From NCBI RefSeq assembly GCF_037975215.1, contig NZ_CP150239.1:596001-660000 (forward strand): DNA of 64,000 nucleotides, read 5' to 3'. Source of the stretch: Solibacillus sp. FSL R5-0449 (GTDB taxonomy: Bacteria; Bacillota; Bacilli; Bacillales_A; Planococcaceae). The notes under the pieces were generated by a model that made no database searches, was not told where the DNA came from, and was given only the letters and a program-made list of their open reading frames with translations. Below are positions 8,362 through 61,376 of this stretch, one piece after another. Numbering within the stretch: the first letter of the stretch is position 1; each line of letters begins with the position of its first letter. Both the position numbers and the translations under genes were made by a program.

Positions 8362-11300
8362 ATGAATAAAAGACAAAAATCGAAGTTCATAAAAGCTACA
8401 ACAGCAGCAGCGGTTGCAGCTTCAGTTGTAGCAGTTGCCGCACCAATCGCACCTGAAGCAAGTTCATTCAAAGATGTATCTTCATCAAACCAATTTTTTG
8501 ATGCAATTAAGAGTTTAAGTGATCGTGGCATCATTAATGGTTATCAAGATGGTACATTTAAACCAGGACAAAACTTGACGCGTGGTCAAGCAGCAAAAAT
8601 TATTGCTGGTGTACTAGGTTTAGATACAACTAATGTAGTTAATCCCAACTTCAAAGATATCCCAAGTAATCATCAATACTACGGAGCAATTGCTGCGTTA
8701 AAACAAGCAGGTATTATTGATGGTTATGAAGATGGTACTTTCCGCCAAGGAGCAAATATCCAACGTAATCACGTAGCGAAGATTATTGCCAATGCATTAA
8801 ATTTAAAATCTACTAATGTTGATGCATTACCATTTACAGACGTACGTGAAGATTATAAAGAAGCAATTGCTGCTCTATATGAAAATAAAGTAACAACAGG
8901 AAAAACAGCTACTAAATTTGATGGTGCTTCTAATGTAACACGTGGTCAAATGGCAGCATTTATTACACGTGCAGAAGCTGTAGTTTCATCAACTCCTGAA
9001 ACACCTCAAACTGTAACTTTCAAACTGGATGATTACACAACAGCCAGTCTTGTTGTGAATGGAACAACTTATTCATACGATAATTCTGTGAAATCAATAT
9101 TTACAGAGGATAATAAAGAAGCATTAAATGACGCTTCCATTGTCGCTACAGTTACAAATGGTGTTATTACAAGTATTGATTCTCTAATACTGAATAATGC
9201 GGGTACAGTAGATAAGGCAGTAGTTTTCAAGTCTGATGCAATAATTAATGCACTAACGATTAATGCTGATTATGTATTCGTTTCTGGATTGACAGTAACA
9301 GGTAACGCAACCGTAACAACAAATGTTGAAAATTCAGTCGAGTTAGATGGCACTACAGTTAAAGGAGATTTAATCATAGATGACGCAATTTTCGGTAAAA
9401 TTGCCTCGTTAGATAATAAGTTTGCCAACGAAGAGAAAAAAGGACCGAATGTAAAATTAAGAAATTTTAAAGCCGGAAAAGTTCATGTAAAGCGTAACGA
9501 TATTGCTATTGAATCGGATTCCGTAATTACTGAAATTACAGTAGCTGCTTCAGTTTCAATAATCAATGTCGATGGAACAGTTTCAAAAGTTACGATTGAA
9601 TCGACAGCGAAACTGGAATTGACAGGTAATGCTAATATCGCACAGCTATTATTAACAACTGCGGCAGAACTTGCCTTAAAAATTTCAGGGACAGTAGAGG
9701 CTTTGGCAGTTTCAAATCCAGCTGCACAAATAACAGTTGGTACAAATTTGAAAATAAATGAATTGACTGTCCCATCTGGCTCAACAGCTGCAGGAATTGT
9801 TTCAAACTTTGCGGCAATAGCGTCACAAATTGTGAATGTCATTGTTGGGACAGCGCCGAATGCAGGTGCACCTAGTACAGGTGGAGGAGGAGGCGGTGGT
9901 GCTGGTGGTGGTGCTGGTGGAAATGTACAAACACCAACACCAGGTGCGGACGCATTAGCGGCAGCGAAGTTCGCGGCATCAAAGCTAATAGCAACGGACT
10001 ACACTCCATCCTCATACCGTGCAGTAACAAATGCAGTGGCAGCAGCAGGTTTAGCAACAACAGATGTTGAAAAATTAGCGGCGGCAAAAGCAATTACTGA
10101 TGCGATTGCAGCGCTAGTAGCGATAACTGAATCTACAATTGTACAAAGTGCTACTGTAAGTACAAATGATGCAACAGAAGATAGCAAAGGGGAATGGACT
10201 TTTGTTATTACTCCGACTACGGCTTTAGTTGAAGGAGACCAACTTATTATTTCATCAAAAGATTTTGATTTAAGCCAATTAGCTAACAGCGATATCAGCG
10301 CTAATACTGCAGATACAGAAAGCGTTAAATCTAGAATTCATATTCAAAACAGTACTATCTCAGGTCACCATGATCTTGTAATTTATTTAAATACGGCAAT
10401 TGATGCGGGAGAGGCTATCACGGTTACTATTGTTGATGAAAAAATCACTAATCCTAAAGCAGGATTATATGAAAAGGCATTTGTTATAGCGACTTCAAAG
10501 GATGTAAAAGCCAAATACGTACCAGTTACCATTTCGAAAAGTGAAATTTTGGAAACTTACCCAGTGACATTTACGAGTGCGGATGGGGCGACAATCGTAG
10601 TAAGAGATAGTGCAGGCAACAAAGTTACTGATTTAACAAAAGTAGCTAATGGTATCTATAGTTATACAGTAACAAAAGAAGGTTACAAAACAATAGAAGG
10701 AACATTTACTGTAGAAGGTGCAGCTAAAGAAGTAGTAATTACATTAGAGGCTGACATAGTTCCAGTAGCAACATACCCAGTAACATTTACAAGTGCGGAC
10801 GGGGCAACAATTGTAGTAAGGGATAGTGCAGGCAACGAAGTTACTGATTTATCAAAACTAGCTAATGGTATCTATAGTTATACAGTAACAAAAGCAGGTT
10901 ACAAAACAGTAGAAGGAACATTTACTGTAGAGGGTGCCGCGAAAGAAGTAATAATTACATTAGAGGCTGAAGAAAATGGACAAACAGCATCTACACCAAT
11001 ATTAATTGGAGATTCTACAATTACATCAGGTGATACAATAAAATTATCTGTAACAACAGGAGATACAGTTTATTATACTTTAGATGGGTCAACTCCAACA
11101 ACAAGTTCAGATTCTGTGACAGTGACAAATGGTGAAGCAATTATTCCTGTAACAGGAGACGGCCTTGTAAAATTAAAAGCCTTTGCGGTTATTAATGGTG
11201 GAACAAATAGTAGTGTTGCAGTTATTCCGTTAGAAGTGAAAAATGTAACAACAACTGCAAATGTAAAAAATCTTGACGAATTAAAATTAGCGTTAGCGAA

Positions 11301-45240: not shown

Positions 45241-46671
45241 TTATTTAATTAAATACCATAGAGCATCTTTCCATGTCGCATCAACATAAGTCCATTCGAA
45301 CGTACGTAATGGGTATGGTCGGAATGTAGGGGCGAACAGATTTTTTTCGTCACCGTCAATGAATATTTGCTGTGGTGCGATTGGAGCTGTAAATACTGCC
45401 GTATCCTCTAAACCCTCGTCCTTCTTAGCAGCATCCTCTTTTTTGGAATCTTCCAGCTCAACAGTTTGGATGCGCGGTTCAGTAACTACAGTATCTTCAA
45501 GTACTTCCTCTTCAATAGTTTCCTCAATCGGTTCGCCGTACATGAACTCTTCTTGCTGTATTTCAGCTTTATGCTTGAACAGTAGGTCAACAGGTTCTAA
45601 TCTAGTTTTCCCATCTTCTCCGACTGTATAAATAAGGTTTACAGAATTGTCCTGTTCATATTTTACAAGCCAATCTTCATTTACTTGGAAGCTGTCATTT
45701 GCTTCAAACGTCGTAATTGACGCATCTGCAAGTATACCAATCGGTGTTTCCGTTAATTGATCAATTGGTTCGATACTAACTTCATAAACCGTATCGTCTG
45801 GCTTTACTTTATCGTTCTTTTTCATTTCATTGAACGCAATGGAATCACGTGCTGGAATTTGCTGTTTTTCCAGTACATCTCCATCAATGACCAGTTCGTC
45901 TTCTTTGCCTTCATTCAATAGAACAGAAGCCTTTTGACCGATTTCGATTTCCTTCCAGTCTTCATGTTCCACATAGGCAACGAATTTCTTTTCAAGTGAT
46001 TGGATTTGGAAAATAATCGAATCGCCTTCAAGAACAATATCTTTAACGATTCCATCCACCGGTGTAGTTAAAGAATTATTGTTATTTAACTGAGATATCA
46101 TACTGTCCAAAATACTGATTTGACGCTCTGTTTCCGCAATGGAACGTTGAATAATGGCAATACCTTCAGCTGTTGGCGTGTTTTGTTCAATACCAAGCTC
46201 CAGTGTTAAATTAATGTTCCAGTTTTCGTTGTCGCCAAGCGTTGTTGAATCGGTTGCAGTACTCGGTGAGGAATTACTGCTTTCGTACTGTAATTCCGAA
46301 ACGATTCTTTCCAATTCCGATAGCTCGTTTTCATAAGCATCACGGTCCGTCTCAAGACGTGTAATTTCACGTTCAGCCTCTTCAGGTTTATAAATGGCCA
46401 GCTCTGTTAAGACGCTGACACTCTGTCCTTGTGTAACAAGAACTTCGCTTATCGATTGTACAGGGGCTGCGATGAAATGCTCCTGCTTCGCTGCCACCAC
46501 TGCATCGGTTTCCAATATTTTTTCATGATAATCCGCTACGGCAAACTGCACATTATTAATATAGTAGTTTTTCATAATAATATCGTTGTCTTTTAATAGT
46601 AAATAACCATTCACTAAAACAAAAACTAAGGCAACAGCACTAAAAATTTTTACTTTTTTCGTCATACGCAT
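45241..46671 (-). CDS. HlyD-like membrane-anchored adaptor protein
   Basis: A 477-residue protein with one N-terminal membrane helix (~8-28). It then shows a split barrel-sandwich (biotinyl-lipoyl) domain (AAPVQSISEVLVTQGQSVSV and LTTPVDGIVKDIVLEGDSII), interrupted by a long coiled coil (~105-205). A beta-barrel domain and an acidic, Glu-rich segment (~375-425) follow. This is the shape of membrane-fusion/adaptor subunits of efflux or export machines (HlyD, YknX). No ABC ATPase or MFS partner is next to it. Its likely partner is the 6-TM protein encoded just upstream, whose stop overlaps its start (TAATG). The start at 46671 follows AAGGGTGG. Function unknown. Confidence 0.75.
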   Translation of the reverse strand: MRMTKKVKIFSAVALVFVLVNGYLLLKDNDIIMKNYYINNVQFAVADYHEKILETDAVVAAKQEHFIAAPVQSISEVLVTQGQSVSVLTELAIYKPEEAEREITRLETDRDAYENELSELERIVSELQYESSNSSPSTATDSTTLGDNENWNINLTLELGIEQNTPTAEGIAIIQRSIAETERQISILDSMISQLNNNNSLTTPVDGIVKDIVLEGDSIIFQIQSLEKKFVAYVEHEDWKEIEIGQKASVLLNEGKEDELVIDGDVLEKQQIPARDSIAFNEMKKNDKVKPDDTVYEVSIEPIDQLTETPIGILADASITTFEANDSFQVNEDWLVKYEQDNSVNLIYTVGEDGKTRLEPVDLLFKHKAEIQQEEFMYGEPIEETIEEEVLEDTVVTEPRIQTVELEDSKKEDAAKKDEGLEDTAVFTAPIAPQQIFIDGDEKNLFAPTFRPYPLRTFEWTYVDATWKDALWYLIK

Positions 46672-51362: not shown

Positions 51363-51392
51363 ATAAGAGAATTAAAATTGGAGGCGTTACAT

Positions 51393-54167
51393 ATGAAAAA
51401 GCATTCTAAGTTTCTAGCATCTGCATCAGCAGCTGTTCTAGCAGCAACGGCAATCGTTCCTGTAGCTAGTGCGGCATCGTTTTCGGATATTAAAGGCAGT
51501 GGTCATGAGAACGCGATTACTATATTATCTGAGCAAGGCATTATCGGGGGGTATCCCGATGGAACATTTAAACCAAATCAAAATTTGACACGTTCAGATG
51601 TTGTAAAACTATTAGGGAAATATTTAGTTTCATTGGGACATGAAGTACCGGAAGATTATAAAACGAAAATGCGTTTCACAGATTTAACTGCCAAATCTCA
51701 GGACGAGTTATTGCAGTATGCGGCATTAGTGAAGGATGTTGGAGTATTCCAAGGAAGTAATGGTGCTTTAATGCACCGTGATCAGTTACGCCGTGACCAA
51801 ATGGCAACGGTTTTAGTACGTGCATTTAAAGTAATCAATGAATATGATTATGTAGAAGCGATGAAAGAAACTGAATATAAATCAAACATTAGTGACTTAA
51901 ACCGCACAACTGTAGAACATCAGGAGTCAATTGAAACACTGGCTTACTATGCAGTAACAAAGCAAAAGACATTCAATCCGAAAGATCCGACAAAGCGCGG
52001 TCAGTTCGCTACTTTCCTTTATAATATGCTACAAATTGAAGTGCCGACGCCTGAACCCGAAAAACCAGTTTTAACAGTTAAAACAGTAGAAGTACAGGCT
52101 GCAGACAAATTGCGTGTAACGCTTTCTGATGATAAGGCTTATATTGTGACATTAAAAACACCTTTAGTGGAGAATGTTGAAACTGAAGTTACTTTTGAAG
52201 TTGGGGAACAGACGTTCACAACAAAAGTGAAATTCGAAGTGCCGGATCTGAAGGTATCTTCTGTTACAAATCCCAATGGGGGTCAAGTTGCAATCACATT
52301 CAATCAGCCTGTAAAGCTGGGAACTGAGTTAAATACTGCAGCCATTAATAAATTGGTGGCGGTTACGGGTGTCGATCGTCTTGGACAAGTACAATTGTCA
52401 AAAGGACAGTTAAGTGAAGATAAACGCACATTGACGGTGACTATTAATGCAACAGCTGGACTTGAAGGACGCTACCGTGTTGTTGTGGATGGCATTGAAT
52501 CAGCAACATCAAAAAAGCTTATTAAATATGATGATATCGCAACTTTCTTACCTGATAAGACATCTCCGGGCGTATTAAAGGTAGAAAATGTATCGGCTAC
52601 TAAAGTAAAAGTGATTTTTACAGAACCAGTTACAAATCCGATTGGGGTTACGCAATTTAAATTAGCAAATGGTACCGTTGTATCAGGTATTCAAGGAACA
52701 ATTGAAAAAAACGCAACAGAAGTTATTTATGATCTATCGGCTGCTACTGCTAAAGGGCAGATTTTAGCACCAGGCACAGCGATTACGGTCACATTTGGAA
52801 CACTTATTGATATTTCAAATAACTTATCTTCACCAAATCCTTTAACTACGTATATTACAAAAGGGGATAAGGATGGGGTTGTACCAACATTAACGAATGT
52901 TACACAATTAGGAGCTAAAAAATTTAAGTTAACATTCTCTGAAGAAGTACGTACAATCGTACCGGCAGATATCACAATCGCTCAAAATACGTATTCACCG
53001 GGAATTACTAGTATTATAAAAGATAAAGATGATGTCAATTCCTATATTGTTACGACAAGTGGTTCATTAAACGGCTATACAACAATTTCAACGACACCTG
53101 GAAAATATATTACTGATGTTTCTGGAGAAGTAAACGTATTCTCAACAGCTTACAACTTTGTTGCTGATACAACAATCCCGTCTGTTGTCAGTACGAATGT
53201 TGTAAAAGATAAAGGAATTGAATATTTAGAATTTACATTTGACCGCAATGTAGAAACAGCAGCCTTTGCGCAAGTGACACTAACGGGCAGCTATATTTTA
53301 AACGGATACACGTATCCATTAAAGGATTCTTTAGTAGGGCAGCTTGAAAAATCAGCAACGAATGACAAAACAATCCGTGTTCGTCTAAGTACATTAACTG
53401 GGCTGACAGCAAATTCCGGCTACACATATTCAGTTGGCGCTACATTTACAGGGGTAACGAGTGAATATGGGCAAGCGGTAAACCCGGCCTACCAAGTGAA
53501 TTTTGTGCGTGGTTCGGATTTTGCGCAAAATGAGGAAAAGCTTTCTGTATTAAGTGTGGAAACGTCATATAATGCAAGACAAGGTACAGTAATTGATAAT
53601 AAAACAATTGTTATAACGTTCTCGACATATGTAGATGGTGTTACGGCATCAAACCTGCAAAACTATGTATTGGACGGTATGACAATCCAGCGTGCTGTAG
53701 TAAATCATAATGAACCTCATAAAGTTTATTTAACGGTCAAAGAAGGGGATATTGCTTACCCACGAGGAACAAATTTGACAATCAGTAATCTACGGGCGTT
53801 AAATTCAATTGTAACGATGGAACCAAAAACAGAATTGGTTTATTTAAATGAAAATGTCGCACCGCAATATGTGTATCATAATATTACTGGTACTGATACG
53901 ATCATCCTTTCATTTAATGAGTCTGTTAAAAATGCTTTAAATCATTCGTTTGAAGTAAAAGTGGGCGATTTAGCTGTGCCGATTTCACAAATTTATTCAA
54001 CTGGTACAAATAATGAACAAGTTGCAATTCGATTAGCTCAACCGTTAAAATCAAACCAAGTTGTCACTGTTTCACAAACTGCGACTTCGACAGTTAGTGA
54101 TCTAGCAAATAATAAACTTGTTTTCTCACCACTTCAGTTTACTGTTCCTACGAATATCAATTACTAA
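51393..54167 (+). CDS. S-layer paralogue 2 (SLH protein)
   Basis: A 924-residue exported protein. Signal peptide to ~28 (VPVASAASFSD), three SLH domains (~28-215; GGYPDGTFKPNQNLTRSDVV), then Ig-like/Big_5-type domains (KVIFTEPV, KLTFSEEV, EFTFDRNV, ITFSTYVDG, ILSFNESV) that share one beta-sandwich pattern. Residue-level likeness to the 54331 protein is high in the SLH part (KTKMRFTDL, DELLQYAALVKD). Codon use is less biased than in the main S-layer gene, so expression is probably lower. ATG 51393 is the start, since the in-frame TTG at 51378 overlaps the GGAGG site. Confidence 0.9.
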   Translation: MKKHSKFLASASAAVLAATAIVPVASAASFSDIKGSGHENAITILSEQGIIGGYPDGTFKPNQNLTRSDVVKLLGKYLVSLGHEVPEDYKTKMRFTDLTAKSQDELLQYAALVKDVGVFQGSNGALMHRDQLRRDQMATVLVRAFKVINEYDYVEAMKETEYKSNISDLNRTTVEHQESIETLAYYAVTKQKTFNPKDPTKRGQFATFLYNMLQIEVPTPEPEKPVLTVKTVEVQAADKLRVTLSDDKAYIVTLKTPLVENVETEVTFEVGEQTFTTKVKFEVPDLKVSSVTNPNGGQVAITFNQPVKLGTELNTAAINKLVAVTGVDRLGQVQLSKGQLSEDKRTLTVTINATAGLEGRYRVVVDGIESATSKKLIKYDDIATFLPDKTSPGVLKVENVSATKVKVIFTEPVTNPIGVTQFKLANGTVVSGIQGTIEKNATEVIYDLSAATAKGQILAPGTAITVTFGTLIDISNNLSSPNPLTTYITKGDKDGVVPTLTNVTQLGAKKFKLTFSEEVRTIVPADITIAQNTYSPGITSIIKDKDDVNSYIVTTSGSLNGYTTISTTPGKYITDVSGEVNVFSTAYNFVADTTIPSVVSTNVVKDKGIEYLEFTFDRNVETAAFAQVTLTGSYILNGYTYPLKDSLVGQLEKSATNDKTIRVRLSTLTGLTANSGYTYSVGATFTGVTSEYGQAVNPAYQVNFVRGSDFAQNEEKLSVLSVETSYNARQGTVIDNKTIVITFSTYVDGVTASNLQNYVLDGMTIQRAVVNHNEPHKVYLTVKEGDIAYPRGTNLTISNLRALNSIVTMEPKTELVYLNENVAPQYVYHNITGTDTIILSFNESVKNALNHSFEVKVGDLAVPISQIYSTGTNNEQVAIRLAQPLKSNQVVTVSQTATSTVSDLANNKLVFSPLQFTVPTNINY

Positions 54168-54174
54168 TAATTGG

Positions 54175-54205
54175 AGCATATCTATTTCGATAGATATGCT
54201 TTTTT
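54175..54205 (+). terminator. Terminator with TTCG loop after S-layer paralogue 2
   Basis: Perfect 11-bp stem AGCATATCTAT / ATAGATATGCT around a TTCG tetraloop, then TTTTT. It lies 8 bp after the stop. Confidence 0.93.
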
Positions 54206-54330
54206 ATGTTTTTATAATACTTTATAGTCATTTTCTCTAAAATATGTTTATATTCAGATAATTAGTGGAAATGCATAGGTTGTAGGTATGGGAATTACTA
54301 AATGTTTTACAAACTAGGAGGTTAATAAAG

Positions 54331-57246
54331 ATGCAGAAAAAGTACAAGAAGTTTTTGACGACGGCGGCTACTACAACATTGGTAGCATCAGCCATTGTTC
54401 CGGCAGCAAGTGCGGCAAGTTTTTCGGATACAGCGGGAAATACTCACGAACTGGCAATTGAATCACTCGTAAGCCAAGGCATCATTTCAGGATATCCGGA
54501 TGGCACATTTAAACCGAATCGTACATTGACGCGATCGGATGTTGTAAAACTATTAGGGAAATACTTAGTATCTCAAGGTTATAAAATACCTTCAGATTAT
54601 AAAACAAATATGCGCTTTTCAGACTTGCGCAGCACATCACAGGACGAACTATTGCAATATGCGGCATTAGTAAAAGACAACGGTGTATTTAACGGAAGTA
54701 ACGGAAACCTGTTACCTGCAGACCCGATTACACGTGAAAATATGGCGGTTGTTTTAGTGCGCGCTTATACGAATATTAAAAACTTTGACTTCCTTGGACA
54801 TATTTTGAATCAAAATTTCAATGAGGATGTCATTGATTATAATAGAGCAAAGGCTGAGGCACGTTCTGCGATTAGAGTTTTAGATTACTATAATGTAACG
54901 GGCGTTCCTAACTTCAATCCGAAAGGGAACACAACACGCGGGCAGTTCTCTTCATTCCTGTATAAAATGCTTCAAATTTCTGTGCCGGGCGAAGGGCTAA
55001 AAGCGATTGAAGTAGTTGATGCATCAACATTGAAAGTCACGCTTACGGACAATACAGAACATACGGTGAAATTGGATACACCATTGGAAGCCGGGAAGGA
55101 AACGCCTGTTAAGTTTACGATTAACGGTAAAGAGTATTCAACTTCTGTCACATATAATGTTGCATTAACAGTAAAAACAGCAGAAGCTACTGCGGCAAAT
55201 AAATTGAAAGTTACATTAAGCGACAACTCCGAGCATGAAGTAACTTTAGAGAATAATCTTCCTGAAAATGAGGAAACAACAGTTGAATTTAAAATTGACG
55301 GTAAAGATTATTCGGCAAAAGTAACATATGTCGTGACGGAAGTGAAAGTCGCATCTGTGAAAGCGCTTAATGCAGGACAAATTGAAGTGAAATTCAATCA
55401 AAGAGTAGATTTGCCTGCGAGTTTAACATCTGCACAATTGGCAAACTATGTGACAGTTTCGGGTGTGGACAATAATGGCGTCACACTTTCAAGAGGACAG
55501 TTAAGCGAAGATGGCCGTACTTTGACAATCTCTACAAACGGGGCTGCAGCTTTATCAGGACGCTATCTTGTAAAAGTAAATAATGTGAAAAATGCAGCGG
55601 GAACAACAGTTACTCCATATGATGATGTTGTCAATTTCGGTACAGATACTGTGGCACCGACATTGATCAGTACAGTAAACCGAGACGCAAAAACAGTTCG
55701 CGTTACATTCTCTGAGCCTTTGCGTGCATTTAGTAACAGCAGTATTACATTCAGACTAGCAAATGGCACGAATGTAACGGGCATTACCGGTGAAATTGCA
55801 GCGGGTGCTACTTATGCAGACTTTGATTTATCAAATGCGATGGTAAATGGTCAGCCATTAGCGGCAAATACTGCAGTTACAGCAACCTTTGCAGGACTGC
55901 GTGATATTGCAGGTAACTTCAGTACACCCAACCCGTTAACGACAAGCTTTGCAATGGGCGGAGCTGATGGAGTTAAACCAACGTTAACAAGTATTTCACA
56001 AACAGGTCCGAAGACATTCAGACTGACATTCTCCGAGCGAATTCAAAAACCGGCAATCGGTGATCTGGAGTTACGTTTAGGTAATTCGGCAAATGCGATT
56101 ACGGCAATTGATGCAGTTCCGGGCGATGACCGTTCATTTATCGTTACTGCTACAAATGATTTATCCGGTGTCTATAATATTGGTACAGCAGCCGGTAAAA
56201 CAATTACCGATATTTCAGGTGAAACGAATACATTCATGACGACACATTCATTCTCACTGGATACAGTTGCACCTGAAGTGACATCAACTTCTGTAACACG
56301 AGAAGGGAATTTCGAGTATTTAAATATTACACTCAATAAACCAGTAGATTTAGTGAATGCTTCTCGTATTACTGCTTCCGGTAACTATGTTAAAGGTGGC
56401 GTTACACATACATTTAATGGTACCGCAACAGCGTTAGAGTATCGGGAGAACGGCAATCGTACTGTAGTGCGCGTGAAACTGGACGATTTACTAGGTACTG
56501 GGGACGCTGATAATGCAACGTACAATGTGACGTTATCATTCACAGAAGTAGATAGTGCATATGGTGTGAATACAGCAAATAAAGCAGTCACTTTCCAACG
56601 TACATCGGATTACTCTAATAATGAAAATGTACTGACAGCGCCTACTGTTACTACTTCAGTGGCGGATTCAACACTAACGAACAATCAAGTGCGATTGAAG
56701 TTTAACCATGTATTGGATGCACCTTCAGCATCTGTTGCGAGCAATTACTCGATTCCAAATGCCAGAATTACGAATGCTCAAGTTCCAAGTGATGCATTGG
56801 ATACAGTTATTCTGACATTGGCGCCGAATGAAACAACAACAACTGGCCCACGTGAATTAACGATTAGAAATGTTAGAGCGAAAGATTCAGTTGCGGCTCA
56901 GCCAAATATAACGACTGAAGTCAATTTGAAGGAAAATATTCGCCCGGTCTTAAACTCCGCTGAATTTACAGCTGCTAACCAAATCGAGTTTACTTTTAGC
57001 GAGAATGTAAGCGGTCTTGATACAGATTCATTTGTAATTGTAAATGCTGCAGGAGCAACGGTAGGCATTGCATCAGTAGCGGGATCGACGACAGACAATA
57101 AAGTAACGGTTACTTTAGCATCGAATCAAACAGTAAATACATCTGTTACGATTACAGCAGGTGCAGGAATTGAAGATGTAGTTGATGAAGCAGGAAATGC
57201 GGTTGTTCACCCGTTCACTTTATCACCAACATTAACAACAAACTAG
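54331..57246 (+). CDS. S-layer paralogue 3 (SLH protein)
   Basis: A 971-residue exported protein with a signal peptide (to ~28), three SLH domains (~28-215; SGYPDGTFKPNRTLTRSDVV) and a long array of Ig-like beta-sandwich domains (VTFSEPL, LTFSERI, ITLNKPVD, LKFNHVLD, FTFSENVSG). It carries two copies of a short module (LKVTLTDNTEHTVKLDTPLE and LKVTLSDNSEHEVTLENNLP), while the main S-layer gene and paralogue 2 show one each. AGGAGG lies 9 bases before the ATG. It is its own unit, with terminators before and after. Confidence 0.9.
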   Translation: MQKKYKKFLTTAATTTLVASAIVPAASAASFSDTAGNTHELAIESLVSQGIISGYPDGTFKPNRTLTRSDVVKLLGKYLVSQGYKIPSDYKTNMRFSDLRSTSQDELLQYAALVKDNGVFNGSNGNLLPADPITRENMAVVLVRAYTNIKNFDFLGHILNQNFNEDVIDYNRAKAEARSAIRVLDYYNVTGVPNFNPKGNTTRGQFSSFLYKMLQISVPGEGLKAIEVVDASTLKVTLTDNTEHTVKLDTPLEAGKETPVKFTINGKEYSTSVTYNVALTVKTAEATAANKLKVTLSDNSEHEVTLENNLPENEETTVEFKIDGKDYSAKVTYVVTEVKVASVKALNAGQIEVKFNQRVDLPASLTSAQLANYVTVSGVDNNGVTLSRGQLSEDGRTLTISTNGAAALSGRYLVKVNNVKNAAGTTVTPYDDVVNFGTDTVAPTLISTVNRDAKTVRVTFSEPLRAFSNSSITFRLANGTNVTGITGEIAAGATYADFDLSNAMVNGQPLAANTAVTATFAGLRDIAGNFSTPNPLTTSFAMGGADGVKPTLTSISQTGPKTFRLTFSERIQKPAIGDLELRLGNSANAITAIDAVPGDDRSFIVTATNDLSGVYNIGTAAGKTITDISGETNTFMTTHSFSLDTVAPEVTSTSVTREGNFEYLNITLNKPVDLVNASRITASGNYVKGGVTHTFNGTATALEYRENGNRTVVRVKLDDLLGTGDADNATYNVTLSFTEVDSAYGVNTANKAVTFQRTSDYSNNENVLTAPTVTTSVADSTLTNNQVRLKFNHVLDAPSASVASNYSIPNARITNAQVPSDALDTVILTLAPNETTTTGPRELTIRNVRAKDSVAAQPNITTEVNLKENIRPVLNSAEFTAANQIEFTFSENVSGLDTDSFVIVNAAGATVGIASVAGSTTDNKVTVTLASNQTVNTSVTITAGAGIEDVVDEAGNAVVHPFTLSPTLTTN

Positions 57247-57256
57247 ATTTGGGTGG

Positions 57257-57290
57257 GGCATACATGCGTAATGGCGTGTATGCCTTTCTA
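57257..57290 (+). terminator. Terminator after S-layer paralogue 3
   Basis: Arms GGCATACATGC / GCGTGTATGCC (57257-57267 and 57274-57284) with one wobble, a 6-base loop and TTTCT. The 21-bp array begins directly after it. Confidence 0.85.
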
Positions 57291-57293
57291 GTT

Positions 57294-57611
57294 TTCTAAT
57301 AAGAGTGGTTAATTTTCTAATAAACATGAAAAAGTTCTAATAAGTTGTCCGTTTTCTAATAAAAAGTTACTTTCTTCTAATAAGAATGCTTGATCTTCAA
57401 ATATCTCTATTGAAAGTTCAAATAAGTGAGTCAGAACTTCTAATATAGATGCTAACTGTTCTAATAAAGTTTATAGAGCGACTTAATTAGCCTTATTATG
57501 GCGTAGATGTAGTTGAATTTTATTGCAAATATATCAAATTTCTAATATAAGTTATGGAAGTGCTAATAAAGTGTATAAATCATCTAATATAATCAAAATT
57601 CTTTCTAATAA
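57294..57611. repeat. 21-bp-period TTCTAATAA array (array 1)
   Basis: The core TTCTAATAA, or close variants, starts at 57294, 57315, 57335, 57354, 57375, 57396, 57417, 57438, 57459, then 57540, 57561, 57582 and 57603. Eight of the intervals are 21 bp and two more are 20 or 19. The 81-bp gap is close to four periods and may hold decayed copies. The ~12 bases between cores are unrelated, so this is not a plain tandem duplication. The flanking region to 57716 holds no gene; a TATAAT at 57676-57681 may serve the SLH-only gene. Confidence 0.85.
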
Positions 57612-57716
57612 AATGACGTAAATTTAAAGAGAGGCCCTCTGTAAGTAATCATCTACATAAAAAGATAAACTATTGTATAATTATACTAACCAGTTTAAGA
57701 GGAAGGATTGAAATAA

Positions 57717-58376
57717 ATGAAGAGATATTTCTATGGCTCAATACTTATTGCAGCATTTGTCATTATTTCAAGTGTTATAGGAAGTAGTCATTCAGTACAG
57801 GCAGCTACAAATCCGTTTACCGATGTAAAAGAAACAAATTCCCATGCAAACGCAATCGTAACCTTATATAATGAAGGAATTATTACAGGTGTAACGAGCA
57901 AAACTTACGAGCCGGGTAAATCGGCAACACGTGGGGATGCGGCATTATATTTAGCAAATGCATTAAACCTGCAAAATAGTACTGCGTCCAATCCAGGGTT
58001 CAAAGACGTTCCAACATCAAGCAAATATTACAAGGCTATCGCTGCATTAAATAAAGCAGGTGTTGTGAACGGCTATGGTGATGAATTCCGTCCGAACGCT
58101 ACATTGACTCGCTCCCAGTTGGCGAAGATGTTAACGATGGGCTTTGAGTTGGAGCAATCTACTACTGCAAAAACGAAATTTACCGATGTTAATAAGTTAA
58201 CGGATACTGCAACAAAGAAATACATTCAAACATTAGTAGATTACGGGATTACGAAAGGTACGACAGCTACTACATTCAGCCCGAATATGAAATTAACGCG
58301 CGCCCAGTTAGCAACATTTTTATATAATGCGATTGAAGCAACTTCAGATGACTTTATCGTAATTGGAGTAGAATAG
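57717..58376 (+). CDS. Short SLH-only exported protein
   Basis: A 219-residue protein made of a signal peptide (1-~31, VQAATNPF) and three SLH domains (~32-85, 92-145, 150-207), with only ~12 residues after them. It has no effector domain, so it may act as a competitor or spacer for SLH binding sites on the wall polymer, or may be a truncated relic of a larger protein. A clean ribosome site (GAGGAAGGA) and a good terminator support a working gene. It is flanked by two inverted 21-bp-period arrays. Confidence 0.88.
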   Translation: MKRYFYGSILIAAFVIISSVIGSSHSVQAATNPFTDVKETNSHANAIVTLYNEGIITGVTSKTYEPGKSATRGDAALYLANALNLQNSTASNPGFKDVPTSSKYYKAIAALNKAGVVNGYGDEFRPNATLTRSQLAKMLTMGFELEQSTTAKTKFTDVNKLTDTATKKYIQTLVDYGITKGTTATTFSPNMKLTRAQLATFLYNAIEATSDDFIVIGVE

Positions 58377-58385
58377 CTTTTTGTG

Positions 58386-58422
58386 CACTTGAGTCTTTTA
58401 TAGGGCTCAAGTGTTTTCTTTT
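58386..58422 (+). terminator. Terminator after the SLH-only gene
   Basis: Arms CACTTGAG / CTCAAGTG (58386-58393 and 58406-58413) with TTTTCTTTT after. Array 2 begins ~30 bp downstream. Confidence 0.88.
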
Positions 58423-58452
58423 GAGATAAAGAGGTAAGTGGGATAGAAAAAG

Positions 58453-58590
58453 TAGAATATTTATCGAAAGAATTAGAAATTTTGTGCCTGAAAGTAGAAA
58501 TTCAGTGTGAATATGTAGAAAATCCTCACCTAAAAGTAGAACCTTTTTTTCGAAATGTAGAACTATAAAGTGCAAAAGTAGAATCGCATT
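58453..58590. repeat. 21-bp-period AAGTAGAA array (array 2, inverted relative to array 1)
   Basis: TAGAA starts at 58453, 58474, 58495, 58516, 58537, 58558 and 58579: seven copies exactly 21 bp apart. Most read AARTAGAA or AATGTAGAA. One extra TAGAA lies off-phase at 58444. Intervening bases are unrelated. On the opposite strand the core reads TTCTACTT, like the TTCTAATA of array 1, so the two arrays face each other across the SLH-only gene. The remaining bases to 58790 hold no gene. TATAAT at 58748-58753 and AAAGGAGGG at 58772-58780 serve the next gene. Confidence 0.87.
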
Positions 58591-58790
58591 TCCACAGACG
58601 AGAATATCAAAATTTTAATAAAGAAATACCTACTAAAGAAAGCGAGAATTACCATCGCTTCACGACAAGTGGCGTGCTACACTTAATTTGAATATTACTA
58701 TTCTATTAAAAGTTGTACATTGCAGTGAAATATATGGCGATATTCGGTATAATTTATACGTTATTGAAATAAAAGGAGGGAATCTGTCGA

Positions 58791-61376
58791 ATGTTGAAAA
58801 TAAGATCAGCACTGTTAGCCTCGCTACTATTTATATCCACAGCGCTACCAACCGCAACGTATGCAAATGTACAAGGCACAGTTGAAGCTGAAAATCCAAC
58901 AGTACAAAATTCAACCACTACTACGACTCAAACTACGGATCCCGGTAATAATCCGATAGTTCAAGAGGAAACGGTTACAAATGAACAGGAAGCGGAATCT
59001 ACTTCTGCCGACAAAAATGCTGAACAGACAACAACACCTGCTCAGCCAGAAGAACCACAGACAGAAACATCTCCGGAAAACGAAGAATCAGTAGAGCAAG
59101 ATTCTCCGGCAAATACTGAACAGCCTGCAACTGATGCAGAACAAAATGAAGTATCAGAACAAAATGAAGTGTCAGAACAGCCCGCTAATCAGCCGCTATC
59201 AGGCGAGAAGTTAACGGTTAAGCAGAAACTTGCGGATGTACCGGATAGTTTCTGGGCAAAAAATGAAGTAATGCAGCTTGTGGAGATGGGCGTAATCGGT
59301 GGTTATCCGGATGCACAGTTCCGACCAAACCTTAACATTAACCGTGGTCAGGCAGCAAACTTGTTTAAAGGTGCATTAAAGCTTCCGGACGGTAAGTATC
59401 AAAATAAGTTTTCAGATGTAAGTACGAAATCTAGCTTTTTACAAGGTGTGTTTTCTACATATGAAGCTGGTATTTTTGGTGGTAAACCAGACGGACGTTT
59501 CGGTGTAGCGGATGCGTTAACACGTGAACAAATGGCAACGACTTTAGTGCGTGCATTTGATTTGAAAGACACAGGTAAAGAACTGACATTTAAAGACTGG
59601 AATAAAATCAGTGAGTCACACCGCGAAAATGTTAAAATTTTAGCGCAGCACGGAATCACAACTGGGCGTGAAGACGGCACTTTTGATCCGAAAGCAACGG
59701 TTAACCGTGTGACATTCTCGGTAATGCTTCACCGTGCCCTTGTCGCGACAAATCAAATTGCGAAAAACGAATATAAAGTACAAGCAGCGGAAGTATCCAG
59801 TAATTTTAAAAACAATCGTGAAGAAATGAACTTTGCACAAGTAACTTCTGATGCAAACCCGCTATACCTGCGTTCAACAGCAGCGATTGTATTTAAAGGC
59901 ACAACAACTGAAACTTTCGGTGTTGCAAAAGATACTGTTTATAATTATGCAGTCGGCAACCAAGGCGCAACAGTAAAAGTAACGGTGCGTGCATTGGAAA
60001 ACGGCGATGATTTTGTATTTACAACATTAGCAAACAAAGGGAAATCAAAGCTGACTGTGGATCTATTCCAGAAAGCATCGAACGTAACGAATTTCCGTCT
60101 ATACCGTTATGATCGTTTCCCGATCGAAAAAAATTCAGCCGATGTATTTGGATATGATTCTTCTTCATACCCTACTGGATTATTACGCATTATGGCGAAC
60201 GAAAAGCTGGCGACAGATCGTATGGTCGGACAGGCATATCGTTCAAAACAATTAACTCAAAGCTATAAAGATACTGGCGGTACAAGTTATATGCGTGACT
60301 TGGAATCTGAGTACGAAGCTTATTCACAAGCATGGCTTGGCGAAGATTTATTCAGCTACTATACACTCGTTTCTAACGGGAACGACATTGTTGATACTTG
60401 GTATATGGATTCAAATGAGCGTTTATTTGAAACAGATGAAAATATGAATGGCTGGATGCTTGAAACAGCGCTTAACTATAAAAAACGTAACAACTGGTAC
60501 ACAGCTGAAGGTCCATACAATAAAATGGCGACAACGACAGAACCAATGCCAAAATCTTACCAAGGGTTCGGGCGTAATCTATTGTTGGTAAAAGAAGACC
60601 GCGCACTTGTTTTATTTAAGGAACAGGGCGACCGTTATTTTGCCAACTTAGTGAAAAACTCGTTCATTAACTTGAATAAGTTTAAAGGCGATGCGACTTA
60701 CTGGAAGACTGAAGTAACAAGTACGTATTTGAAAAACCTATTTGGCATTACAGCACCGTTTATCGATACGCGCTTTAATGAGCAGATTGCGTTATTCTAC
60801 TATAATTCCGGTGCAGAGTTTAATATGCCGAATTATAAAGAACCGTTACGTAATTATGCAGATCTTTTAGCATCGCGAAAACAGGCAGGGCATGTAATTG
60901 GTGTGGCAAAAGATGCTTATTACATTTCGGATTACTTCCCTGTGAATCAGCAGGTGACAACACATGCATCGATGAACCATGTACTTGGTGGGATGAATGT
61001 TCTGTTGTTGGCATATAAAGAATTCCAGGATCCTAAATATTTAGAAGCGGCAAAATCAATTAGCCATGCATTACAAATTGAGAAGAACAAGTGGATCCGT
61101 TCAAACGGAGATATCTGGTACCGCGTAAATCCAAAAGGTGAATTTGCCGGTGATGATTATCAGCACTTAACGCTCGAAGACTTGATCAACGCTTATAAAA
61201 ACTGGAAAGATGTAGATCCATCACAATTACCGGTATTTGAAGAGATGCTGATTTCAAAAGCGAATTATTTATCGAAAAACCGTTTAGGTCACACATACAA
61301 AATTAAAAATGGTCTGGAAGAAATCGGCATGTCCGAGTATTTACCGGAAGGCAAATTATATACAGACGCATTATAA
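58791..61376 (+). CDS. SLH protein with large C-terminal domain (possible alpha/alpha-barrel)
   Basis: An 861-residue exported protein. The signal peptide (1-~24) is followed by an unusual Glu/Thr/Gln-rich linker (~26-140), which puts the three SLH domains (~146-320) away from the N-terminus. A beta-rich segment (~340-430) and a ~430-residue C-terminal part complete it. The C-terminal part has aromatic, helix-rich stretches (TTHASMNHVLGGMNVLLLAY, then KEFQDPKYLEAAKSI and WIRSNGDIWYRVNPKG), which recall alpha/alpha-toroid enzymes such as glucuronyl C5-epimerase or glycan lyases. No catalytic residue can be named, so activity is only suggested. AAAGGAGGG lies 10 bases before the ATG. Confidence 0.85.
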   Translation: MLKIRSALLASLLFISTALPTATYANVQGTVEAENPTVQNSTTTTTQTTDPGNNPIVQEETVTNEQEAESTSADKNAEQTTTPAQPEEPQTETSPENEESVEQDSPANTEQPATDAEQNEVSEQNEVSEQPANQPLSGEKLTVKQKLADVPDSFWAKNEVMQLVEMGVIGGYPDAQFRPNLNINRGQAANLFKGALKLPDGKYQNKFSDVSTKSSFLQGVFSTYEAGIFGGKPDGRFGVADALTREQMATTLVRAFDLKDTGKELTFKDWNKISESHRENVKILAQHGITTGREDGTFDPKATVNRVTFSVMLHRALVATNQIAKNEYKVQAAEVSSNFKNNREEMNFAQVTSDANPLYLRSTAAIVFKGTTTETFGVAKDTVYNYAVGNQGATVKVTVRALENGDDFVFTTLANKGKSKLTVDLFQKASNVTNFRLYRYDRFPIEKNSADVFGYDSSSYPTGLLRIMANEKLATDRMVGQAYRSKQLTQSYKDTGGTSYMRDLESEYEAYSQAWLGEDLFSYYTLVSNGNDIVDTWYMDSNERLFETDENMNGWMLETALNYKKRNNWYTAEGPYNKMATTTEPMPKSYQGFGRNLLLVKEDRALVLFKEQGDRYFANLVKNSFINLNKFKGDATYWKTEVTSTYLKNLFGITAPFIDTRFNEQIALFYYNSGAEFNMPNYKEPLRNYADLLASRKQAGHVIGVAKDAYYISDYFPVNQQVTTHASMNHVLGGMNVLLLAYKEFQDPKYLEAAKSISHALQIEKNKWIRSNGDIWYRVNPKGEFAGDDYQHLTLEDLINAYKNWKDVDPSQLPVFEEMLISKANYLSKNRLGHTYKIKNGLEEIGMSEYLPEGKLYTDAL

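Follow-up and report, generated by a model that had tools for sequence, protein, structure and literature searches.

The phased array analysed here is probably one of many dispersed chromosomal arrays of a two-part system whose other part would be a NERD-domain protein, a system that resembles RAYT/REPIN in its logic while being unrelated to it. The array lies in a window of 64,000 nucleotides from Solibacillus sp. FSL R5-0449 (NZ_CP150239.1), which covers positions 596001-660000 of a 3.58-Mb chromosome starting at dnaA (dnaA, dnaN, recF and gyrB were identified by eye from translations). We incline slightly towards a wider reading as well, in which such arrays belong to an undescribed class of elements, where a NERD/PD-(D/E)XK protein with a fast-changing DNA-reading domain would be coupled to its own dialect of phased array, later multiplied over the chromosome. 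Because protein and dialect would change together, the bacterial family would then hold dozens of parallel systems, several per genome.

All thirteen copies of the 9-bp core named in the preliminary description of this DNA were found where it had placed them (Table 1). Their consensus is TTCTAATAW; relative to TTCTAATAA, seven cores are exact, four have one mismatch and two have two mismatches. Successive cores of this array, array A, start 21, 20, 19, 21, 21, 21, 21, 21, 81, 21, 21 and 21 bp apart, and the single 81-bp gap splits it into nine and four cores. The steps of 19-21 bp described earlier thus hold for most of the array, while the exact 21-bp steps number nine rather than eight and the gap had gone unmentioned. 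Shuffled DNA had been proposed as the refuting comparison: array A contains 8 phased 6-mer pairs, whereas the maximum among 1000 dinucleotide shuffles was 3, and none of 4560 control windows (20 control stretches, 234 kb, same genome) reached 3. The array as observed is real and far above chance, and its earlier interpretation is partly supported. It starts 48 bp past the last base of the gene for the 971-aa SLH-domain protein, with a terminator-like hairpin, recognised by eye only, between the two. Four consecutive SLH-domain genes occupy the plus strand at 51378-61376 of the window. TRF also reports a 21-bp tandem repeat of 2.1 copies at 46557-46602 and a 216-bp tandem repeat of 1.9 copies at 10554-10970 of the window.

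Table 1. Array features and flanking genes, in window coordinates
Feature	Position	Strand	Basis
Array A core starts	57294, 57315, 57335, 57354, 57375, 57396, 57417		
Array A core starts, continued	57438, 57459, 57540, 57561, 57582, 57603		
Array A block 1, nine cores, steps 21, 20, 19, 21, 21, 21, 21, 21	57294..57467	+	core positions, step comparison
Linker without recognised cores, core-to-core 81 bp	57468..57539	+	core positions, chain gaps
Array A block 2, four cores, 21-bp steps	57540..57611	+	core positions
Array B, seven-core chain, TTCTACWTT, 21-bp steps, next intergenic region	58449..58583	-	
Flanking gene, SLH-domain protein, 971 aa	54331..57246	+	
Flanking gene, SLH-domain protein, 219 aa	57717..58376	+	

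The same layout recurs over the chromosome. A periodic-core search of this genome, as proposed in the preliminary description, found 80 exact type A core pairs separated by 10-13 bases; allowing up to two mismatches at a spacing of exactly 21 bp gave 320 pairs, and the reversed pattern gave 0 in both cases. Among the matches listed, type A forms 43 array groups, the window's included, a count that may miss loci having weak minus-strand pairs alone, and 40 of the 43 have no overlapping ORF of at least 90 aa. The usual A chain consists of nine cores at steps of 20/21, 20, 19, 21, 21, 21, 21 and 20/21 bp and often continues with an 81/82-bp gap (seen 21 times) and four further cores. Across 450 A cores, one base makes up at least 95% at each of positions 1-3 and 5-8; T occupies position 4 in 397 cores, and 447 have A or T at position 9. 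For step comparison, 44 A blocks were selected in which a 19-bp step precedes one of 21 bp: step 2 was 20 bp in 40/44 and step 5 was 21 bp in 43/44, with agreement in 43/44 at step 6 and 42/43 at step 7. Type B (TTCTACWTT) has about 15 loci among the matches listed, one of them in the window and one, at 0.686 Mb, counted from the listing with its sequence left out; 14 fall within 0.33-1.12 Mb, a region of 0.79 Mb on one replichore, and the remaining locus is at 2.005 Mb. A coding role for the A arrays was rejected: reverse frame 0, which would give LLE heptads, has stops in 39 of 316 21-bp units and the steps of 19 and 20 bp break the frame, while the other five frames have stops in 32 to 297 of the 316 units.

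Comparison between species supports selection on the core and its phase, as was originally supposed. The focal locus and the uvrB locus each have an orthologous array in four species (G004 and G006, whose uvrB-locus array is short and decayed, were excluded from the core and spacer count). Of 336 comparisons made per locus over the seven strict core positions, 3 show a difference, whereas spacers differ in 138/486 (28%) at the focal locus and 72/486 at uvrB. Steps among the first eight cores are unchanged across the four species at both loci, and spacer 4 is itself conserved (5/72 and 3/72, respectively). The additional claim that recent duplication was not involved needs correcting. Two A arrays about 1.1 Mb apart (L054 and L060) have a spacer identity of 0.88 and a linker in common, with flanks that are not shared; whole arrays have been copied, or converted, between distant sites. 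In taxonomic range, exact A pairs were found in 11 of 16 genomes of the genus and in 0 of 45 other genomes sampled. A search of genome contigs gave 119 matches, of which 76 of the 80 listed have one pair; among these 80, one record (L148) has two, and Ureibacillus manganicus has two loci with four pairs apiece (L094, L147), both real arrays with the A core; Solibacillus merdavium has a pair. A metagenome-assembled genome of Odoribacteraceae (Bacteroidota, an unrelated phylum) contains nine TTCTAATAA pairs at 42-bp steps (L109 4492-4815). In viral contigs, 80 of 80 records among the matches listed hold a single pair.

The arrangement of steps is informative about helical phase. The best one-turn period is 10.28 bp for type A (43 arrays) and 10.34 bp for type B (9 arrays); the coherence R of A arrays is 0.88 at 10.28 bp and 0.53 at 10.5 bp, and for the 18 gapped A arrays 0.85 and 0.32, respectively. 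The suggestion that all cores lie on the same helix face is supported, with a period of 10.28 rather than 10.5 bp per turn: the pattern of 20/21, 20, 19 and then 21s holds the cores in phase at the former value and not at the latter. Bent DNA, also raised earlier, is not supported, the mean intrinsic curvature of 43 A arrays, computed from wedge parameters, having a z of 0.00. The 22 NERD-adjacent arrays of at least five periods average 20.59 bp (range 20.0-21.17, steps beyond about 19-22 bp and multiples being left unchained). Mean periods elsewhere are 20.58 in U. manganicus (2 arrays), 20.66 in the g14-type TTCTATCC (29 arrays), 20.76 in L203, 20.88 in G188 (3 arrays), 20.92 in G076 of g3 (8 arrays) and 21.06 in L226, so that short steps among 21s are common across dialects and not universal. 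The near-uniform 21-bp steps of G076 and the uncorrected L226 speak against a general phase correction. One G076 array (L280, G076:C1:1885227-1886153) extends over about 930 bp as near-perfect 42-bp dimers, with 21-bp steps and a single 61-bp gap.

A NERD-domain gene (315 aa) adjoins a type A array (L063, by cluster annotation); further NERD genes have as neighbours a type B array (L072) and, in two other genera, the arrays at L258 and L269. The genome of the window array has six NERD genes, the A-type one at about 2.877 Mb. Three of the six adjoin a phased array, each of a different core, and all three are within the four scoring >60 bits. The third core, TTGRCTAAAT (type C), is present on both flanks of the third gene (L433 1150-1260 and 2345-2475), with no other copy in 0.55 Mb of own-genome sequence, overlaps counted. 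Against the two-part reading, the other three genes have no array, and one of them (L434) is in sequence close to the array-bearing ones.

Adjacency was surveyed for 60 NERD genes, 300-400 aa long and drawn from 16 genera in listing order. With a threshold of at least 3 phased 6-mer pairs in the fetched locus, an array was present in 41/60 loci, compared with 2/30 loci of another NERD subfamily (its 30 best-scoring ones) and 0/58 control pieces, all from the own genome; at 4 or more pairs the counts were 27/60 and 1/30. Scanning the gene flanks alone gave an array in 40/60 loci and 13 of the 16 genera. A Fisher test of these 40/60 flanks against the 2/30 whole loci gave p=2.5e-8, to be read with the reservation that the loci are not fully independent, since the 60 include several per genome as well as orthologues. 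Two observations count against the two-part reading: 19/60 loci (20/60 by flanks) fell below the threshold, and one A array (L444, in G008) adjoins a NERD gene of the other subfamily.

As judged from sequence comparison, the core dialect follows the NERD protein. The same core was found in 14 of 18 protein pairs with at least 70% identity, in 2/43 at 50-70%, 3/73 at 35-50% and 15/856 below 35%; all 18 of the closest pairs are within a single genus, so shared locus ancestry contributes to this relationship. In two genomes (G001 and G015) the sole exact A pair adjoins an A-type NERD gene, the protein of which is 64-65% identical to that of the window's genome, and this gene with its array looks like the founding unit before multiplication.

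The array-side protein appears to combine a PD-(D/E)XK-type nuclease-like core, a zinc ribbon and an HTH-like C-terminus. Four array-side proteins match Pfam NERD (PF08378) at 57.5-67.2 bits against a cut-off of 22.1; this is their sole match above cut-off, zinc-finger matches being sub-threshold. All 66 proteins have residues E47, D82, E95 and K97 (D, E and K belonged to the motif by which reading frames were picked, which 0 of 66 loci failed, and E47 did not), and each of four zinc-ribbon cysteines is present in 56 or 57 of the 66. The HTH-like part is recognised from the alignment and resembles a winged helix by eye, and a Pfam search of it in the four proteins gave no match. A PDB search returned five weak matches (E of at least 0.19), four of them to ribosomal zinc-ribbon proteins; in PADLOC and NCBIfam the NERD portions of PglW and MAD6 were matched weakly. 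Among viral contigs, 14 pattern matches to NERD relatives were obtained and 0 were confirmed. Little was found in print on what NERD proteins do: SmdA of Staphylococcus has been described (PMC9040797), and NERD is listed among phage-defence domains (PMC10952713). The open-access literature yielded neither a reported function for the array-type NERD protein nor a report of its pairing with a phased array.

The two-part system would probably operate as follows. A NERD gene neighbours one array of matching dialect, and its product, a strong candidate for the binding protein suggested earlier, would read each core through the C-terminal part, with one molecule per two helical turns. The steps of 19 and 20 bp would serve as corrections, holding every molecule to the same DNA face at about 10.28 bp per turn, so that a row of proteins could form along the array. 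From such a gene-array pair, arrays would multiply in trans, and gene-less copies would spread in the way that REPINs depend on RAYTs. Binding to DNA, nuclease activity and protein-driven spread are all predictions, and array-only copies could also come from gene conversion between existing arrays.

Related dialects appear to be widespread in the family. A generic pattern of three TTCTA motifs at 20-21 bp occurs in 133 of 200 family genomes, with tens to >100 matches in some of them, and its reversed control is about 0 in most and high in some; lineage-specific continuations of TTCTA include TTCTATGAGCGC, TTCTATCCGTCACTTT, TTCTATTA and TTCTACCGAAAT. Across 299 genomes of the class the pattern is rare outside the family, the highest counts there being 25+10 in G409 (control 2+9) and 15+10 in G043 (control 2+8), followed by 7+11 in G454 (simple 7-bp repeats) and 0+10 in G337 (control 0+1). 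In G409 and G043, which belong to other families, TTCTA-phased matches are thus accompanied by raised reversed-pattern counts. Array type differs by lineage at the slot upstream of uvrB (L044, L233, L243, L250), which holds A arrays, a GGATAGAA-type array in G009 and a CGCTCATAAAAG-type array in g14, and has no array in G089 and G074. In-place change of the core at a fixed site was considered here and is weakened: the cores of the own A array, the G009 array and the g14 array are different, the first two are also in different orientation, and G089 and G074 lack an array. Variation in orientation among lineages, also seen at L042/L254, is a point against the two-part reading. Tentative same-slot matches across genera were noted at L048/L224, L037/L229 and L042/L254; L256/L046 was discarded as a same slot, being similar-looking and on the opposite side of the gene.

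Position suggests a different explanation, in which the arrays belong to the host, have no link to NERD and act as insulators or sinks at gene ends, for example as antisense terminators or topoisomerase sites. Convergent regions are favoured (15/43 A groups against 18/117 control intergenic regions of at least 60 bp, p=0.014) and divergent ones are rare (3/43 against 24/117, p=0.056). The downstream gene faces the array in 31/43 A groups and in 42/57 groups when A and B are combined; 19 of the 31 have their stop 50-90 bp from the array, and terminator-like hairpins at the facing stops were seen by eye in several A groups. Composition flips from G/T-rich before an A array to C/A-rich after it, and in the antisense-terminator version the C-rich, G-poor end would supply Rho sites; it also fits that a few slots hold different dialects in different lineages. 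Such an explanation is nevertheless unlikely, as it leaves the lineage-specific cores, the several dialects per genome and the tie between dialect and NERD unexplained. Pairing of the G/T-rich left flank with the C/A-rich right flank into a stem was rejected (permutation p=0.07, own partner not clearly better than other partners), the signal being one of composition only. BIME/REP elements are extragenic, lie near gene 3' ends and consist of palindromes in alternating orientation, and BIMEs serve as terminator or topoisomerase sites at gene ends; the arrays described here are likewise extragenic and near gene 3' ends, whereas BIMEs are palindromic. Very unlikely is a NERD protein acting as a local autoregulator, with the adjacent array as operator and the dispersed arrays as regulon: a median gene-array distance of 70 bp (45 of 66 loci with array) would suit it, but 32 of 40 flank arrays are downstream of the NERD gene, with 8/40 upstream, and few A arrays occupy divergent regions, which are rich in promoters. 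Plasmid iterons, too, are direct repeats spaced by about two turns, and the gene for the protein that recognises them lies alongside; here the arrays are chromosomal, dozens of copies are gene-less and a replication initiator is absent. The focal array had no match in 72,556 plasmid records, and a phage search returned only 34-35-bp matches, to 15 Campylobacter phages, none convincing. Neutral tandem repeats homogenised by slippage or gene conversion, to which the long near-perfect 21/42-bp arrays of some lineages (G076) would conform, are hardly credible, given cores much better conserved than spacers, a retained step pattern and gene adjacency.

A guide-like function, in which transcribed arrays with spacers of about 12 nt would direct RNA-guided targeting by the NERD protein in the manner of TIGR-Tas, is distinctly unlikely, although the resemblance is instructive. 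As described in PMC12045711 and PMC10910872, TIGR loci combine short repeats and 9-12-nt spacers with a nuclease-like gene, the array being up- or downstream of it; the repeat is constant per locus and variable between loci, as here, and spacers are short and variable. TIGR RNAs, however, are 36 nt long with two alternating repeats, and their proteins have a Nop domain (PMC12045711), whereas the present arrays have a single repeat type with one core per 19-21 bp (about 20.6), many are without an adjacent gene, and the four array-side NERD proteins gave no Nop match at E 0.1, Pfam showing NERD and sub-threshold zinc fingers. Further points against guides are the 43 A groups for only six NERD genes in the own genome, orthologous spacers that differ by point substitutions with the step retained, and steps that track helical phase, which RNA does not need. 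Structured RNA was rejected as well, the mean fold z being -0.09 on one strand and +0.08 on the other (43 arrays); in 56000-59500 of the window Rfam gave one match, outside the array, which scored 21 bits where the gathering score is 52. A broader likeness exists to non-CRISPR interspaced repeat systems, in which genes for nucleic-acid proteins, one of them with a PD-(D/E)XK nuclease, the fold predicted here, are linked to arrays (PMC10910872). An AddB-like nuclease/helicase and a GGDEF system are named there, and NERD has a single mention in the text consulted, where the legend of a figure gives it as a putative auxiliary gene of CRISPR.

The two-part reading is closest in logic to RAYT/REPIN, where, according to PMC3116915, several extragenic repeat types coexist in a genome, each near its own protein gene, the RAYT being a tyrosine transposase and the REPIN a palindromic hairpin. 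Both features of that organisation, a nuclease-type gene near each repeat type and non-autonomous copies genome-wide, have counterparts here, in the NERD gene beside an array at 41/60 loci, including types A, B and C of the own genome (the tie being observed for these and the surveyed loci, not for every dialect), and in the 43 dispersed extragenic A groups. The components differ: the four proteins searched against Pfam are NERD/PD-(D/E)XK without a Y1/HUH transposase, and the repeats are phased and direct, without hairpins by the fold values above.

If the two-part reading is true, bacterial genomes would have, besides RAYT/REPIN and unrelated to it, a second way of keeping dispersed non-coding repeats, and this type of NERD protein would gain a testable DNA target. 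The family would amount to a natural library of protein-DNA code pairs, dozens in number, where genome neighbourhood would suffice to assign a nuclease-like protein its target word, and a helical repeat of about 10.3 bp would be readable from sequence.
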